From the NCBI GenBank assembly GCA_040755395.1, contig JBFMAX010000003.1, forward strand, positions 310,001-374,000: 64,000 nucleotides of DNA. Reading direction: 5' to 3'. The number at the start of each line of letters is the position of its first letter. Position 1 is the first letter of the stretch. The notes below the pieces were generated by a model. That model ran no database searches, was not told where the DNA came from, and saw only the letters and a program-made list of their open reading frames with translations. Positions 638 through 59,056 of this stretch are shown piece by piece. This DNA is from Nitrospirota bacterium (GTDB lineage: Bacteria; Nitrospirota; Nitrospiria; Nitrospirales; Nitrospiraceae). Made by a program: the position numbers and the translations under genes.

Positions 638-1486
638 TTCTGTTCGACCACCATTTTTTCATGCACGCGTCCCCACCGAATCGCGTGAAACGGGCCTCGT
701 GAAGCGTGAAGCGTCGACAGTTTCGGAGGAGTTGCAAGATGCGAGTGACGACCACGGAGGGAGAGATGCCTGGCGTGCTGATTGGTGAGCGAAGCGCCCA
801 CCCTCCTTCCTATCGCGGCCGGTGTCTCTGGCGGGCAGGCGGCGGGGTTGTCCCACACTGCGCGCGTCCACCGAGCACCGCCCATTCTGATAGATATACG
901 ATTGATCTTGTGTGCGCGGTGCGCGAGCACAGGGACAACCCTGCCGCCTAGCCCTCCTTATTTTTTCACACCGGCCACTGCTCCTCGTCCGCTCTCCCAT
1001 TCTTCCCAATCTCTGCCTCACGTGGCCAGTATGTTCCCTATACCGAGCTGGCCGGGGAGGCTCGCGACGCGTCAATCAGAGCGCCGTTGGGTCACCGCAC
1101 TTGCTAAGCTGGAGTGGCCGGCTCAGCCGGTGGCGAGGACTGTTTGAAGCTGCGTTCGCGCAATGCGCGGAATGCAGCGAGTTCCGCAGCCAAGTGGAAG
1201 GAAAGCGTGGAGCAGTCAACGGCGCTCTGTGGCTGCGAGCGGAGAGAGCCTCCCAGCCCTGGCCCTCCACTCTCCGAACTACACCGGCTACTTCTCACTC
1301 TTACTGATTCCATTCGCTCACGTTCCTGCCTCTCATGGCTTGGTGTAGGGCAGCGGGTGGGGCCGACCTGGGAACCCGTCCGCGCGGAGCGGGGTCCCTA
1401 CACCGGGCGGGGTGCGAGCGTGCACCCGTTGCAACCGGGCGAAGAGCAACGGGTACCCGGCTGGTCGGGCGACAGGACCCGGTGCG
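638..1486. other. Non-coding, repeat-bearing stretch
   Basis: No reading frame here has a recognisable protein pattern. Every long frame is interrupted, runs antisense to another, or is proline/arginine-rich in the way GC-rich non-coding DNA is. The right end (1353-1481) holds a copy of the dispersed 3'-end repeat described separately. The hicAB promoter should lie just right of 637. Confidence 0.6.
1353..1481 (-). repeat. Dispersed 3'-end repeat, copy A
   Basis: This is homologous to 49866-50079. The two share GCCGACCTGGG, then AGCGGGGTCCCTACACC, GGGGTGCGAGC, GAGCAACGGGTACCCGG and GACAGGACCCG in the same order; the other copy has about 90 bp extra inside. The element ends 6 bp from the tenA stop codon (1487), so on the minus strand it lies directly behind that gene. 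It contains the palindrome CGGGTACCCG. Confidence 0.8.
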
Positions 1487-2155
1487 CTACACCGGCCACT
1501 CTTCCTCGTTCCACGCCATCTCCCAAAACATCCATTCATACCGCGAACTGATCACGAACGCCTCCTCCATCCGCCGTTTCTCGTCACGTCCCGCATGCTT
1601 CGCCCATTCATCCACCTGCTTCCGCATCCACTTCTGCACCTCGGCGAATTCCGGAGAAGCGTAGAGGAGGAGCCAATCGCGATACGGATGCCCGGCTTGC
1701 GGCGGGCCGTCTTTCAAAAGATGCTGCCCGACCACACAATAAATCCAGGCGCAGGGGAGCGCAACCACGGCGATCTCGCAGGCTGAACCCGCTGCGGCCA
1801 CGGCCAGCATGTGCCGCGTGTAGGCATAGTTGGTCGGGGCCATCGGGACCGAAGTCATCTCTTGCGGCGTCATCCTCCAGCGCTTCCCGTAGCTTTCATG
1901 CAGGCTCCGTTCGACGGTGATGGTTTCTTCGGCGAGCTTGGTAAACCGCAAGGCCGATTCCGAATCCGGCGCCTTCTGGGCCCCGGCGGAAAAGACTCGG
2001 GACAGATCTCCCAAAAACCGCGCGTCTTGCAGGATGTAGTACTTGAACTTCCGCTCCGGCAACGTGCCCTTGCCGAGCGCGACGACGAAGGGATGGGTCA
2101 ACTGCGCATCCCAGATCGGTTTGGCCAGTTGACGAAGGCGGTCGGAAAACGACAT
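1487..2155 (-). CDS. tenA: TenA-family thiaminase II / aminopyrimidine aminohydrolase
   Basis: A 222-residue all-helical TenA protein. It hydrolyses aminomethyl-pyrimidine (thiamine breakdown product) to HMP for thiamine salvage. Residues that match the classical cysteine type are Asp44 (LQDARF), Tyr110 and Tyr112 (TNYAYT), and the nucleophile Cys135 in ALPCAWIY, the same number as in Bacillus TenA. The C-terminal RYEWMFWEMAW fits the family glutamate/tryptophan region. The gene is read just after a THI5/NMT1-like gene (34 bp gap), which supports a pyrimidine salvage role. The substrate, thiamine or aminopyrimidine, cannot be told from the sequence. Confidence 0.9.
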   Translation of the reverse strand: MSFSDRLRQLAKPIWDAQLTHPFVVALGKGTLPERKFKYYILQDARFLGDLSRVFSAGAQKAPDSESALRFTKLAEETITVERSLHESYGKRWRMTPQEMTSVPMAPTNYAYTRHMLAVAAAGSACEIAVVALPCAWIYCVVGQHLLKDGPPQAGHPYRDWLLLYASPEFAEVQKWMRKQVDEWAKHAGRDEKRRMEEAFVISSRYEWMFWEMAWNEEEWPV

Positions 2156-24540: not shown

Positions 24541-24924
24541 GGGGGCAGGCTCGCGGGTCCTGTCGCCGGACAGTCCGGCCGTCCTCGCACCTCACCTACA
24601 CCCGCAAGCGGGTACCCGAGGGACTTCGCTGCGGGAGGCAGTGCTCTCTGTCCGGCGCCATCACGAACCAGAATGGTGGAAGTCGAAGGGTTGAAAGTTC
24701 GCTGAGGACTCGGCCGCCTTCGTGCAAAGACGAAAGCCGTATACCTGTCAAGGGTTAGCTGGGCGCTTTCTTCGTCGTCCTTTGTGCTCTGGAAACCGGT
24801 GAGTCCTCAAGCCGTAAGGATGGCTCGCCCGCAAAGTCGCGTTGACCGCTGTCCTGGCGGCTGCAGTCGGGAGTTGAGTGGGTGATGGAGTAGTGAGCAA
24901 ATCGCTTCATTGGTCGAGGTCTGA
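24541..24924. other. Non-coding gap with degenerate 3'-end repeat
   Basis: No protein pattern in six frames. About 13 bp after the ntrX stop the sense strand reads CGGGTCCTGTCGCC (24554-24567) and, later, AAGCGGGTACCCG (24607-24619). These are the two hallmarks of the 3'-end repeat found after tenA, yqeY and the ferredoxin gene, in the same orientation relative to the gene. The rest shows nothing I can assign. Confidence 0.55.
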
Positions 24925-49691: not shown

Positions 49692-50096
49692 GCGCGCGAC
49701 TGCTCTCTGAACATGACCGGGGAACGCGATGAGGCCGGTGAAGCGGCGCTGGACACGGGTGAACGGCGCACCGAGCGTCCGGGTTCCGGATCGCCCGACT
49801 CGATCAAGTTTCAGTAAGTATAGCAGTCCCCCTCGCCCTTCGGGCCACCCTGCAGGATGGAAAATGCGGGTGGCGCCGACCTGGGTGCCCCCCACCCGTT
49901 GCACGCGACCCATTGCATTGGACCCGTTGCAAGGAAGAAGCAACGGGTGCCCCCGCAATGAATGCCCCGGCAACGGGTACCCGGCGCAGCGGGGTCCCTA
50001 CACCGCGCGGGGTGCGAGCTTGCATCCGTTGCAATCGGAGAGGAGCAACGGGTACCCGGCTGGTCGGTGACAGGACCCGCATTTTCATACCAGGTG
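49692..50096. other. Non-coding gap holding the 3'-end repeat
   Basis: About 400 bp without a gene. Most of it is the dispersed repeat copy B plus an inserted piece with short hairpins such as ACCCATTGCATTGG and CGTTGCAAGG. The promoter of the receiver gene at 49691 should lie at its left end. Confidence 0.6.
49866..50079 (-). repeat. Dispersed 3'-end repeat, copy B
   Basis: GCGGGTGGCGCCGACCTGGG opens the copy, matching 1353-1372 at 19 of 20 bases. About 90 bp of extra repeat sequence follows, then AGCGGGGTCCCTACACC from 49988 to GACAGGACCCG ending at 50079, nearly identical to 1388-1481. It ends 18 bp from the yqeY stop (50097), so it lies directly behind that gene. Confidence 0.8.
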
Positions 50097-50543
50097 CTAG
50101 CGAAGTCTCGACCGGACCAGGTCGCTGATCAATTTCCCATCGACGGCTTGGCCGGCCAAGCGAGCCATGACGGTTTTCATGACGGTTCCCATGTCTTTCG
50201 GCGAGGTCGCGCCTGTTTCTTGGACGACGGCATCGATGATCTGAGAGACCTCCTCCGCCGTAAGCGCGCGCGGGAGATAACTTTGGATGATCGCGATTTC
50301 CTTGAGTTCCTTGCCGGCCAAGTCTTCCCGCCTGGCCTTGTCGTATTGTTCGGCGGCTTCTTTGCGTTGCTTGATCAACGAGGCCATGACGCGGGTCATC
50401 TCCGCATCGTCCAGGTGTTTCTTGAGTTCCAGTTCCTTGTTCGTCACCGCGGCCTTGATCATGCGGATGACGTCCATGCGGAGCTGATCCTTGGCCTTCA
50501 TGGCGTGTTTCAGGTCTTCGGCGAGACGGTCGTGAAGCGACAT
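50097..50543 (-). CDS. yqeY: GatB/YqeY-domain protein
   Basis: A 148-residue YqeY-like protein: MSLHDRLAEDLKHAMKAKD at the start, MIKAAVTNKELE, then LIKQRKEAAEQY and the ending DGKLISDLVRSRL. The domain is related to the tail of GatB amidotransferase and binds tRNA-like RNA; its own role is not settled. The ATG at 50543 follows AGGAGCCCC. Confidence 0.9.
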   Translation of the reverse strand: MSLHDRLAEDLKHAMKAKDQLRMDVIRMIKAAVTNKELELKKHLDDAEMTRVMASLIKQRKEAAEQYDKARREDLAGKELKEIAIIQSYLPRALTAEEVSQIIDAVVQETGATSPKDMGTVMKTVMARLAGQAVDGKLISDLVRSRLR

Positions 50544-50707
50544 GGGGCTCCTTGTTGGTTGTCGGTCCGGGGACATCGCCGGCGTGGTCGACAAGGGCAG
50601 AATAGCCCGGCGCTCCGATTCCGTCAATCGGTCGACCATGACGGTCTTCGGCCCTGCACCGGAAGACGCCCCGCCGGCTTCGCGCATCGTCACAAAGAAC
50701 GTCGTGC

Positions 50708-50960
50708 TAGCCCACATTATTCATGAACGCTTCTGCTGCAATCGCGGATTCGCTGCTGGGCACCCATTGCCCCAAGATGCAATGGGTCCCGGCCTTGCGG
50801 CGGGCGTGCTCGCCGCTCAGTCCTTCGACGTACTGTTTCAAGTACGCCTCAGTCCCTCGCGGCTGCGCTTGCCCGTCTCGCGACGCGACTCCCGGGTACC
50901 CGTTGCTCTTCTGCTGCAACGGGTGCAACGCGACGAACCGTCATGAATAATGTGGGCTAG
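50708..50960 (-). mobile_element. MITE-like element, copy 1
   Basis: A 253-bp element bounded by perfect 20-bp inverted repeats: CTAGCCCACATTATTCATGA at 50708-50727 and its complement at 50941-50960. On the minus strand the inside shares its sequence with the copy at 57343-57556, including CGACGGTTCGTCGCG-like start, GAGCAACGGGTACCCG, GGCGAGCACGCCCG and GCAGCAGAAGCGTTCATGA. About 40 bp with a CCATTGC/GCAATGG hairpin are extra here. No transposase is encoded. Confidence 0.82.
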
Positions 50961-56905: not shown

Positions 56906-57346
56906 GTGAAACGCGTTTGTCGCATGACCCTGATTCCTGCGGTGGCGCTGATCACAGCCGCTGGTCTGGCCTCCGGCGTCGACGCGCTGGCCGATCAAGA
57001 GAAGCCGGCCGAGCCGGTCGTCGCTACGCTCGGTGCCGACGGGATTCAGCGCGCATCCTTCACACTGGACAGCTATTCGTATGCGCCGAGCCATCTCATT
57101 GTCGAAGCCGGAAAACCGGTCGAGTTGACACTCACCAGCGTCACGCTGCTCACGCCTCATAACTTTGTGCTGAAAGACGCGGCGGCCGGACTGGCGGTGG
57201 ATCAGGATGTGAGCGCCGGCAAGACCGTCACGGTCCGCTTTACCCCGACACAACCGGGAACCTACACTTTTTACTGCGACAAGAAGCTGTTGTTTTTTGC
57301 CAGTCATCGTGAAAAGGGAATGGAAGGCACGCTCGAAGTTCGCTAG
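56906..57346 (+). CDS. Secreted cupredoxin-like copper protein
   Basis: A 146-residue protein with a GTG start and a signal peptide (RMTLIPAVALITAAGLASG). The cupredoxin fold shows all type 1 copper ligands: His in LLTPHNFVLKD, then Cys-His-Met in YTFYCDKKLLFFASHREKGMEG. It probably carries electrons or stores copper in the periplasm. Its stop codon TAG (57344-57346) lies in the terminal inverted repeat of MITE copy 2. An ATG at 56924 is an alternative start. Confidence 0.8.
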   Translation: MKRVCRMTLIPAVALITAAGLASGVDALADQEKPAEPVVATLGADGIQRASFTLDSYSYAPSHLIVEAGKPVELTLTSVTLLTPHNFVLKDAAAGLAVDQDVSAGKTVTVRFTPTQPGTYTFYCDKKLLFFASHREKGMEGTLEVR

Positions 57347-57556
57347 CCCGCATTATTCATGACGGTTCGTCGCGTTTCACCCGTTGCAGCGGAAGAGCAA
57401 CGGGTACCCGGCAGACGCGTTGTGAGACGGGCAAGCGCAGCCGCGAAGGAGGGAAGCATACTTGAACAGTATGTTGACCGACTGAGTGGCGAGCACGCCC
57501 GTCGGAACAGCGTATCTGCGTTTGCAGCAGAAGCGTTCATGAATAATGCGGGTTAG
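57343..57556 (+). mobile_element. MITE-like element, copy 2
   Basis: A 214-bp element with inverted ends CTAGCCCGCATTATTCATGA (57343-57362) and its complement at 57537-57556, one mismatch (TTAG). The inside is homologous to copy 1 in opposite chromosomal orientation. Both copies keep a frame that reads QYV-x-x-LSGEHARR and ends AAEAFMNN-x-G before the TAG of the right end. Confidence 0.82.
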
Positions 57557-58612: not shown

Positions 58613-58730
58613 ATTTCGGCCCGCGGCAGACCCTCTCGCTCTTTCTCCGCTCGTCCGCGGGTGACGCCAACCTGAGAGCCCCTGACCCATTGCTAAGACC
58701 CATTGCAATGAAGAATGCAATGGGGGCCCC

Positions 58731-58767
58731 GAGCAACGGGTACCCGGCTGGTTGGCGGCAGGACCCG
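58731..58767 (-). repeat. Dispersed 3'-end repeat, copy C (short)
   Basis: GAGCAACGGGTACCCGGCTG, then GTTGGCGGCAGGACCCG. It matches the core of copies A and B and ends 8 bp from the stop of the minus-strand ferredoxin gene (58775), the same place and direction. A CATTGCAATG-type hairpin precedes it. Confidence 0.75.
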
Positions 58768-58774
58768 CCACTTC

Positions 58775-59056
58775 CTACTTCTTCTGCGGCTCCAGCAGCT
58801 TCTCCCCCTTCCGGAATACCGCGTAAATGGCCTGCGACGGACAGGCGTCGAGGCAGAGACGGCAGCTTTCCAGACAGCGGGAGGCGTCGAACTTGAACGG
58901 CGGGGTGGAGAGCCAGGCGCCGGTCGGACAGATGGGAATGCAGACGGCGTTGTGCGTGCACCGGTCGGGGTGACGGACGAGGTGATCTCTGACGACCATC
59001 ATGGGTTTCACTCCCTCAAACAGAGCCTGGGAAAAAATCTCCAGCATGTTCTTCAT
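58775..59056 (-). CDS. 4Fe-4S ferredoxin-type protein
   Basis: A 93-residue ferredoxin-like protein. The C-terminal cluster motif CLESCRLCLDACP is regular CxxxCxxCxxxCP-like; the first motif, RCTHNAVCIPICPTG, is irregular (CxxxxxCxxxC). So one or two 4Fe-4S clusters are possible. It starts 12 bp after the stop of the gene at 59069 (operon). Confidence 0.8.
   Translation of the reverse strand: MKNMLEIFSQALFEGVKPMMVVRDHLVRHPDRCTHNAVCIPICPTGAWLSTPPFKFDASRCLESCRLCLDACPSQAIYAVFRKGEKLLEPQKK

Follow-up and report, generated by a model that had tools for sequence, protein, structure and literature searches.

A multicopy hairpin element lying in sense orientation behind stop codons in Nitrospiraceae, with relatives in many phyla

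Four copies of an intergenic, multicopy hairpin element lie in the window, by which we mean the whole 64,000-nucleotide stretch of Nitrospirota DNA that was analysed. The element has covarying stems and invariant bulges, it occurs in several phyla, and in the Nitrospiraceae it is found almost exclusively in sense orientation past stop codons. We favour, with moderate confidence, the explanation that it is a REP- or MITE-like mobile hairpin which in Nitrospiraceae has been retained in sense past stops and probably acts at mRNA 3' ends. It constitutes a new family to be explained, being sequence-fixed, present in many phyla, absent from Rfam, not found in viral contigs, and without a linked transposase. 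The sense placement in Nitrospiraceae, set against unbiased strands elsewhere, is a natural test case for the possible conversion of a mobile palindrome into a gene-end element.

Copies in the window and their host genes

Copy A (1353..1481, minus strand; E 9.9e-14) has a 129-nt core situated 5 nt past the stop of tenA (gene 1487-2155, minus strand), and its outer flanks, GGTGTAGCGCA / TGCCCTACACC, are complementary too. Copy B (49866..50079, minus strand), with a 214-nt core containing nested palindromic modules, follows the yqeY stop (gene 50097-50717, minus strand) by 17 nt, and its outer stem GAAAATG / CATTTTC extends to about 49859-50087. Its 5' arm (50043..50079, minus strand) comprises CGGGTCCTGTC, the 3-nt bulge CCT, stem 2 and then the beginning of an inserted GGGTACCCGTTGC module, and pairs with the 3' arm (49866..49890, minus strand; CCCAGGTCGGCGCCACCCGC). 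Copy C (58657..58767, minus strand; R2 E 9.9e-6) has a 111-nt core 7 nt past a ferredoxin gene's stop (gene 58775-59056, minus strand). The worn copy D (24554..24664, plus strand) lies about 13 nt past the stop of an ntrX-type regulator (gene end 24540, plus strand). Pfam analysis of the host genes returned TENA_THI-4, YqeY, 4Fe-4S ferredoxin and a sigma-54 response regulator of the NtrX type.

The first-pass annotation had placed these four copies in sense behind tenA, yqeY, ferredoxin and ntrX, and this holds, with stop-to-core distances (counted to the first C) of 5, 17, 7 and 13 nt, respectively. It was also right to count the ntrX copy, which a covariance model built without copy D recognizes as a true member (E = 2.1e-5); an element is likewise present behind the ntrX-type orthologues of G022 and G037, which belong to two other genera. 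Copies A and B, earlier described as homologous over some 125 bp, are 91% alike across 55 nt and have both ends in common. Two strings had been proposed as marks of the repeat. Both CGGGTCCTGTC and CGGGTACCCG are present where described, but CGGGTACCCG is no element of the family signature. It comes from an insert, the palindromic module GGGTACCCGTTGC...GCAACGGGT, which is also found inside an unrelated repeat, and short members lack it; the true 3' signature of the family is GCGYCACCCGC.

A second repeat family in the window (50707-50960 and 57343-57556) consists of inverted copies about 90% alike with 20-bp terminal repeats (CTAGCCCACATTATTCATGA), and it also contains the palindrome GGGTACCCGTTGC...GCAACGGGT.

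Structure of the element

The members of the family are imperfect palindromes with a core of about 80-145 nt, longer where inserts are nested. The shortest full form in the source genome is 96 nt long (CGGGTCCTGTCACCGACCAGCCCGTCCGTGCTCGCACCCCGCCCGGTGTAGGGACCCCGCTGCGCGCGGACGGGCGCCCAGGTCGGCGCCACCCGC), while the upper part of the longer forms there, of 109 to 214 nt, contains nested palindromes. The conserved core runs from GCGGGTCCTGYC to GCGYCACCCGC and includes an unpaired 3-nt bulge, CCT, and a Y.Y mismatch covarying between T.C and C.T. It folds into a long imperfect hairpin, the outer stem of which (GCGGGT/ACCCGC) is prolonged by complementary flanks. Above this stem follow, in order, the bulge CCT, a G-C pair, the pyrimidine-pyrimidine mismatch, a C-G pair and the variable stem 2, and then a bulge, the variable stem 3 and an upper stem containing a small internal loop. 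Because GCGGGT/ACCCGC and the bulge were preset in the search patterns, the conservation of these features outside model-based hits is partly built in.

The stems covary both within the source genome (score 0.205 versus 0.085 in shuffled data; 14 pairs with two-sided changes) and among 30 diverse sequences (0.300 versus 0.116; 112 two-sided changes). Across 193 distinct copies the mismatch pair was T.C in 124, C.T in 53, C.C in 7 and T.T in 7, and is thus a correlated non-Watson-Crick pair. In the same 193 copies, flank pairs 1-4 were Watson-Crick at frequencies of 0.65, 0.65, 0.51 and 0.46, versus 0.25 expected; this pairing uses all four bases and has no sequence preference. It is also evident in the source genome alone (139 versus 104 +/- 5; 0 of 5000 shuffles). 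The paired flanks are not target duplications, because those would be direct repeats. A subset of source-genome copies shares longer common ends (CTGGTATGAAAATG ... GAATTACTG), again without duplications, and some copies there are flanked by GAAAATG...CATTTTC. The complementary flanks are probably a product of template switching at the hairpin, or else are maintained by selection on the stem. At one locus (L050; G000 C1:542569-542711) the outer stem has its right arm interrupted by another palindrome, located in the right flank (CACCCTCTCCCCTGGAGGGAGAGGGT).

Distribution

The 4.1 Mb source genome holds about 35 copies, the four window copies included; they are intergenic and scattered. Among its relatives the element was detected in 17 of 41 genomes by the first model and in 18 of 39 by the broad model, belonging to two of the four families of the order. 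The same core is present in Nitrospirota, Omnitrophota, Acidobacteriota, Actinomycetota, Rokubacteria, Aminicenantes and others. Scanning GTDB genomes for the pattern yielded at least 120 stretches across many phyla; these come mostly from metagenome-assembled genomes, so that misbinning of some contigs is possible, and chance may explain a few of the matches (e.g. L109). Between 15 and 48 copies per genome were found in Omnitrophota, Acidobacteria, Actinobacteria, Aminicenantes, Nitrospirae and one deltaproteobacterium (39% GC).

A phage or plasmid vehicle was rejected: a pattern scan of the 2.9 million contigs of IMG/VR gave no exact match, blastn against phage records gave no match, and blastn against plasmids gave a single weak partial one. 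A known RNA family was likewise rejected, as Rfam covariance models gave no relevant match to the window or to eight loci from several phyla. When the literature was searched for the element's sequence strings, the papers listed contained nothing but unrelated primers and sequences from human or plants.

Placement behind stop codons

Among the relatives in the window's own family (f1), 30 of 42 copies lie at most 30 nt past a same-strand stop, compared with a null of 5.4% derived from the window's intergenic space (p about 6e-29), and in tandem gene contexts 27 copies are in sense and 1 is antisense. The non-random sense placement past stops that had been proposed from the window is therefore upheld. 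In the source genome, 18 copies are tightly placed in sense versus about 2 in antisense, and the tandem contexts give 20 versus 8. The sister family (f2) no longer has the tandem bias (13 versus 11), while stop-proximal copies are still 20 in sense versus 8. Three genomes of other phyla (deltaproteobacterial, Aminicenantes and Omnitrophota) show no strand preference, which means that sense 3'-end placement is not inherent to the element family. The first-pass annotation had named copies without preference for 3' ends or strand as the observation that would count against it; the source genome and f1 do not have this pattern, whereas it is found outside the order.

Many copies sit between close same-strand genes, and between convergent genes two copies are possible, each past its own stop. 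In the single-contig genome G001, copies only 19 kb from each other occupy opposite strands, each 5-19 nt downstream of a same-strand stop, indicating that strand follows the gene and not replication; a replication-strand cause of the sense bias was rejected since these neighbouring copies are opposite yet each in sense to its own gene. The distances in relatives depend on gene calls from a simple codon model, which hardly affects the strand counts.

In about 14 gene families the element follows the same gene in more than one genus or family; by our own estimate from copy numbers under random placement, about 2 would be expected by chance. Most orthologous element pairs resemble each other no more than unrelated copies do, with a few clear exceptions, and at the same genes sister species, for example G022 and G001, carry unlike elements (identity 0.54-0.63). 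These data are compatible with gene conversion and also with repeated insertion at one site. Elements past the stops of ntrX-type genes and tenA were also seen at L064, L222 and L078 and at L054 and L266, in different genera or families, with upper loops that differ and are typical of each genome.

Mobility

In the Omnitrophota genome G041 (loci L341-L370) the core lies inside a MITE with a 17-bp terminal inverted repeat, GGTSSTGTCTCAATTTG, and 8-bp target duplications. There are 33 matches to GGTSSTGTCTCAATTTG in this genome; those examined flank the core, many of them with 8-bp target duplications, from which we conclude that in this setting the core belongs to a MITE. Perfect duplications were seen in 10 of 36 cases, versus 0.78 by shuffling. 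Other core copies in G041 have different ends. Target duplications were seen at 0 of 31 sites in the source genome and at 2 of 97 in Nitrospirales relatives (shuffled 0.66), which is not above chance. The combination of terminal inverted repeat and target duplication characterizes the repeat-bearing copies of G041 and was not found in the source genome or its Nitrospirales relatives. When element-bearing and empty sites of G022 and G001 were compared, the intergenic DNA proved too diverged to align.

A linked partner gene was rejected, no neighbour recurring among 379 neighbour proteins at 80 external loci. None of the four Y1 transposase (PF01797) loci of the source genome has the element, carriers such as G008, G013 and G015 have no Y1 hits, and several non-carriers do have them; a RAYT/Y1 transposase as the mover was rejected on the grounds that it is unlinked and that presence or absence of the element does not track the Y1 family. 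At one locus (L032, around 1450-2200) a Y1 transposase gene lies between inverted AAAAGGGGTCGGGAGTC repeats which are unrelated to the element.

Alternative explanations

The suggestion that the repeat might be a termination element is not supported for the classical intrinsic kind. A GC-rich stem does lie past stops, and some source-genome copies have the GAAAATG...CATTTTC flanks, but across the 193 distinct copies there is no T-run downstream and T makes up about 0.25 of every downstream position. Moreover, many copies are located between close same-strand genes, and termination needs no sequence-fixed bulges, making a plain intrinsic terminator extremely unlikely. A cis-acting RNA element of Nitrospiraceae mRNAs, selected on the sense transcript with mobility secondary, would account for the extreme sense bias and stop proximity in f1, the element at the same genes across genera, the paired stem changes beside invariant bulges, and the convergent pairs with two tail-to-tail copies, one per gene. 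Against it, the bracketed mismatches of stem 2, read on the sense strand, are 7 G.T versus 23 A.C, so that G.U would be rare in the sense RNA, and RNA folding gave the antisense strand as the more stable in all sets. Both asymmetries count against ordinary selection acting on a sense RNA and give no sign of such tuning; if anything, the strand whose fold is kept is the opposite one, as DNA or RNA, and maintenance at the DNA level, such as template switching at hairpins, is a serious option. In addition, 21 of 39 relatives lack detectable copies, most orthologous pairs are no more alike than unrelated ones, and other phyla have no strand bias. We consider this RNA explanation, whether as a 3' UTR regulator or as a protein-bound 3'-end former, unlikely.

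We give a similarly low probability to an insertion mechanism that reads transcription or hairpins and so fixes direction at transcript ends, the pattern then reflecting targeting and not function. Group IIC introns, at terminator hairpins, are the proposed analogue; the unlike elements of the sister species G022 and G001 at the same genes are what recurrent insertion predicts, the complementary flanks could be the arms of an earlier hairpin, and REPs within palindromes are on record (PMC3733652). On the other hand, pairing of the flanks extends all the way to the core and leaves no loop bases over, the same core has no strand bias in other phyla, and gene conversion among copies would produce the same pattern. 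Still less probable, and in our opinion quite improbable, are ordinary MITEs of a DDE transposase, without a role, whose location and strand result only from the purging of harmful insertions. The terminal repeats and target duplications of G041 agree with this, but target duplications above chance are missing from the source genome and its relatives; purging accounts for 3' ends and not for a strand bias of 27 versus 1, and bulges invariant across phyla would be needless.

Under the mobile-hairpin explanation that we prefer, a protein, possibly a transposase or some other hairpin-binding factor, would recognize the folded strand and so keep the unpaired features fixed. The transcribed hairpin, located within or beside the terminating ribosome's footprint, might then act on the mRNA 3' end by analogy with E. 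coli REPs, and such an action would keep the surviving Nitrospiraceae copies in sense at 3' ends. Several points weigh against this explanation: no transposase is linked to the element, the stem 2 mismatches and the more stable antisense fold give no sign of selective tuning of a sense RNA, and a symmetric hairpin alone would not require sense orientation. It is possible, and we suggest it tentatively, that the element represents an undescribed cross-phylum class of hairpins recognized by a dedicated protein, and that in Nitrospiraceae this class has turned into a strand-locked module at the 3' ends of many unrelated genes.

Comparison with known systems

Integron attC sites are hairpin-forming, variable in length and found in sense orientation directly past stop codons, with GTTRRRY / RYYYAAC boxes at their ends and an arrangement in cassette arrays. 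The element resembles them in forming hairpins, in its variable length, in lying in sense past stops and in that the opposite strand folds better. It differs in that its consensus has no GTTRRRY/RYYYAAC boxes, the ends being GCGGGTCCTGYC and GCGYCACCCGC, and its copies are scattered and not in cassette arrays; judged from boxes and arrangement, it is not an attC site. With MITEs it shares imperfect terminal inverted repeats and zero coding capacity, and in G041 also true terminal inverted repeats with 8-bp target duplications. The Nitrospirales copies differ from MITEs in having no target duplications, and conservation across phyla resides in the core and not in the termini.

REPs of the GTAG and CGTC super-families are palindromic, extragenic, multicopy sequences of 20-40 bp with stems of 5-13 bp (8-9 bp in CGTC REPs) and one tag; they lie mostly past same-strand genes or between convergent ones, often less than 20 nt from the 3' end, are sometimes inserted in longer palindromes, and in the CGTC group have no known transposase (PMC3733652). 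The element is likewise palindromic, extragenic, multicopy, near gene 3' ends (30 of 42 in Nitrospiraceae) and without a linked transposase. In contrast to REPs, it has another sequence and a core of 80-145 nt with several stems and fixed internal loops, and it occurs mostly as single units, so that the short palindrome of 20-40 bp with a 5-13 bp stem and a short loop does not describe it; its size and structure place it outside the REP definitions tested. An intrinsic terminator, with a GC-rich hairpin and then a T run, does not describe it either, nor does a RAYT-mobilised REP with Y1 (PF01797) linkage or co-occurrence. Strict sense orientation within one family is not described in Di Nocera 2013 (PMC3733652). 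As a tag, an unpaired GTAG or CGTC (TGTC, CCTC) at one end was sought; on the 5' side CTGYC is reminiscent of TGTC, and the 3' side has a CCA, but both lie within the outer stem and are partly paired.

Passages in PMC3733652 and PMC12306157 record REPs about 15-20 nt from stops or closer, and describe stop-proximal E. coli REPs as mRNA stabilisers or as causing ribosome stalling with lowered output. In the E. coli stalling REPs, according to a passage in PMC12306157 (ref. 17 therein), the hairpin lies about 15 nt or less from the stop codon. The element differs from these in sequence and size and resembles them in position only, its hairpin being similarly close to the stop. By this analogy with stop-proximal REPs, mRNA stabilisation or ribosome stalling would be its most likely role here.
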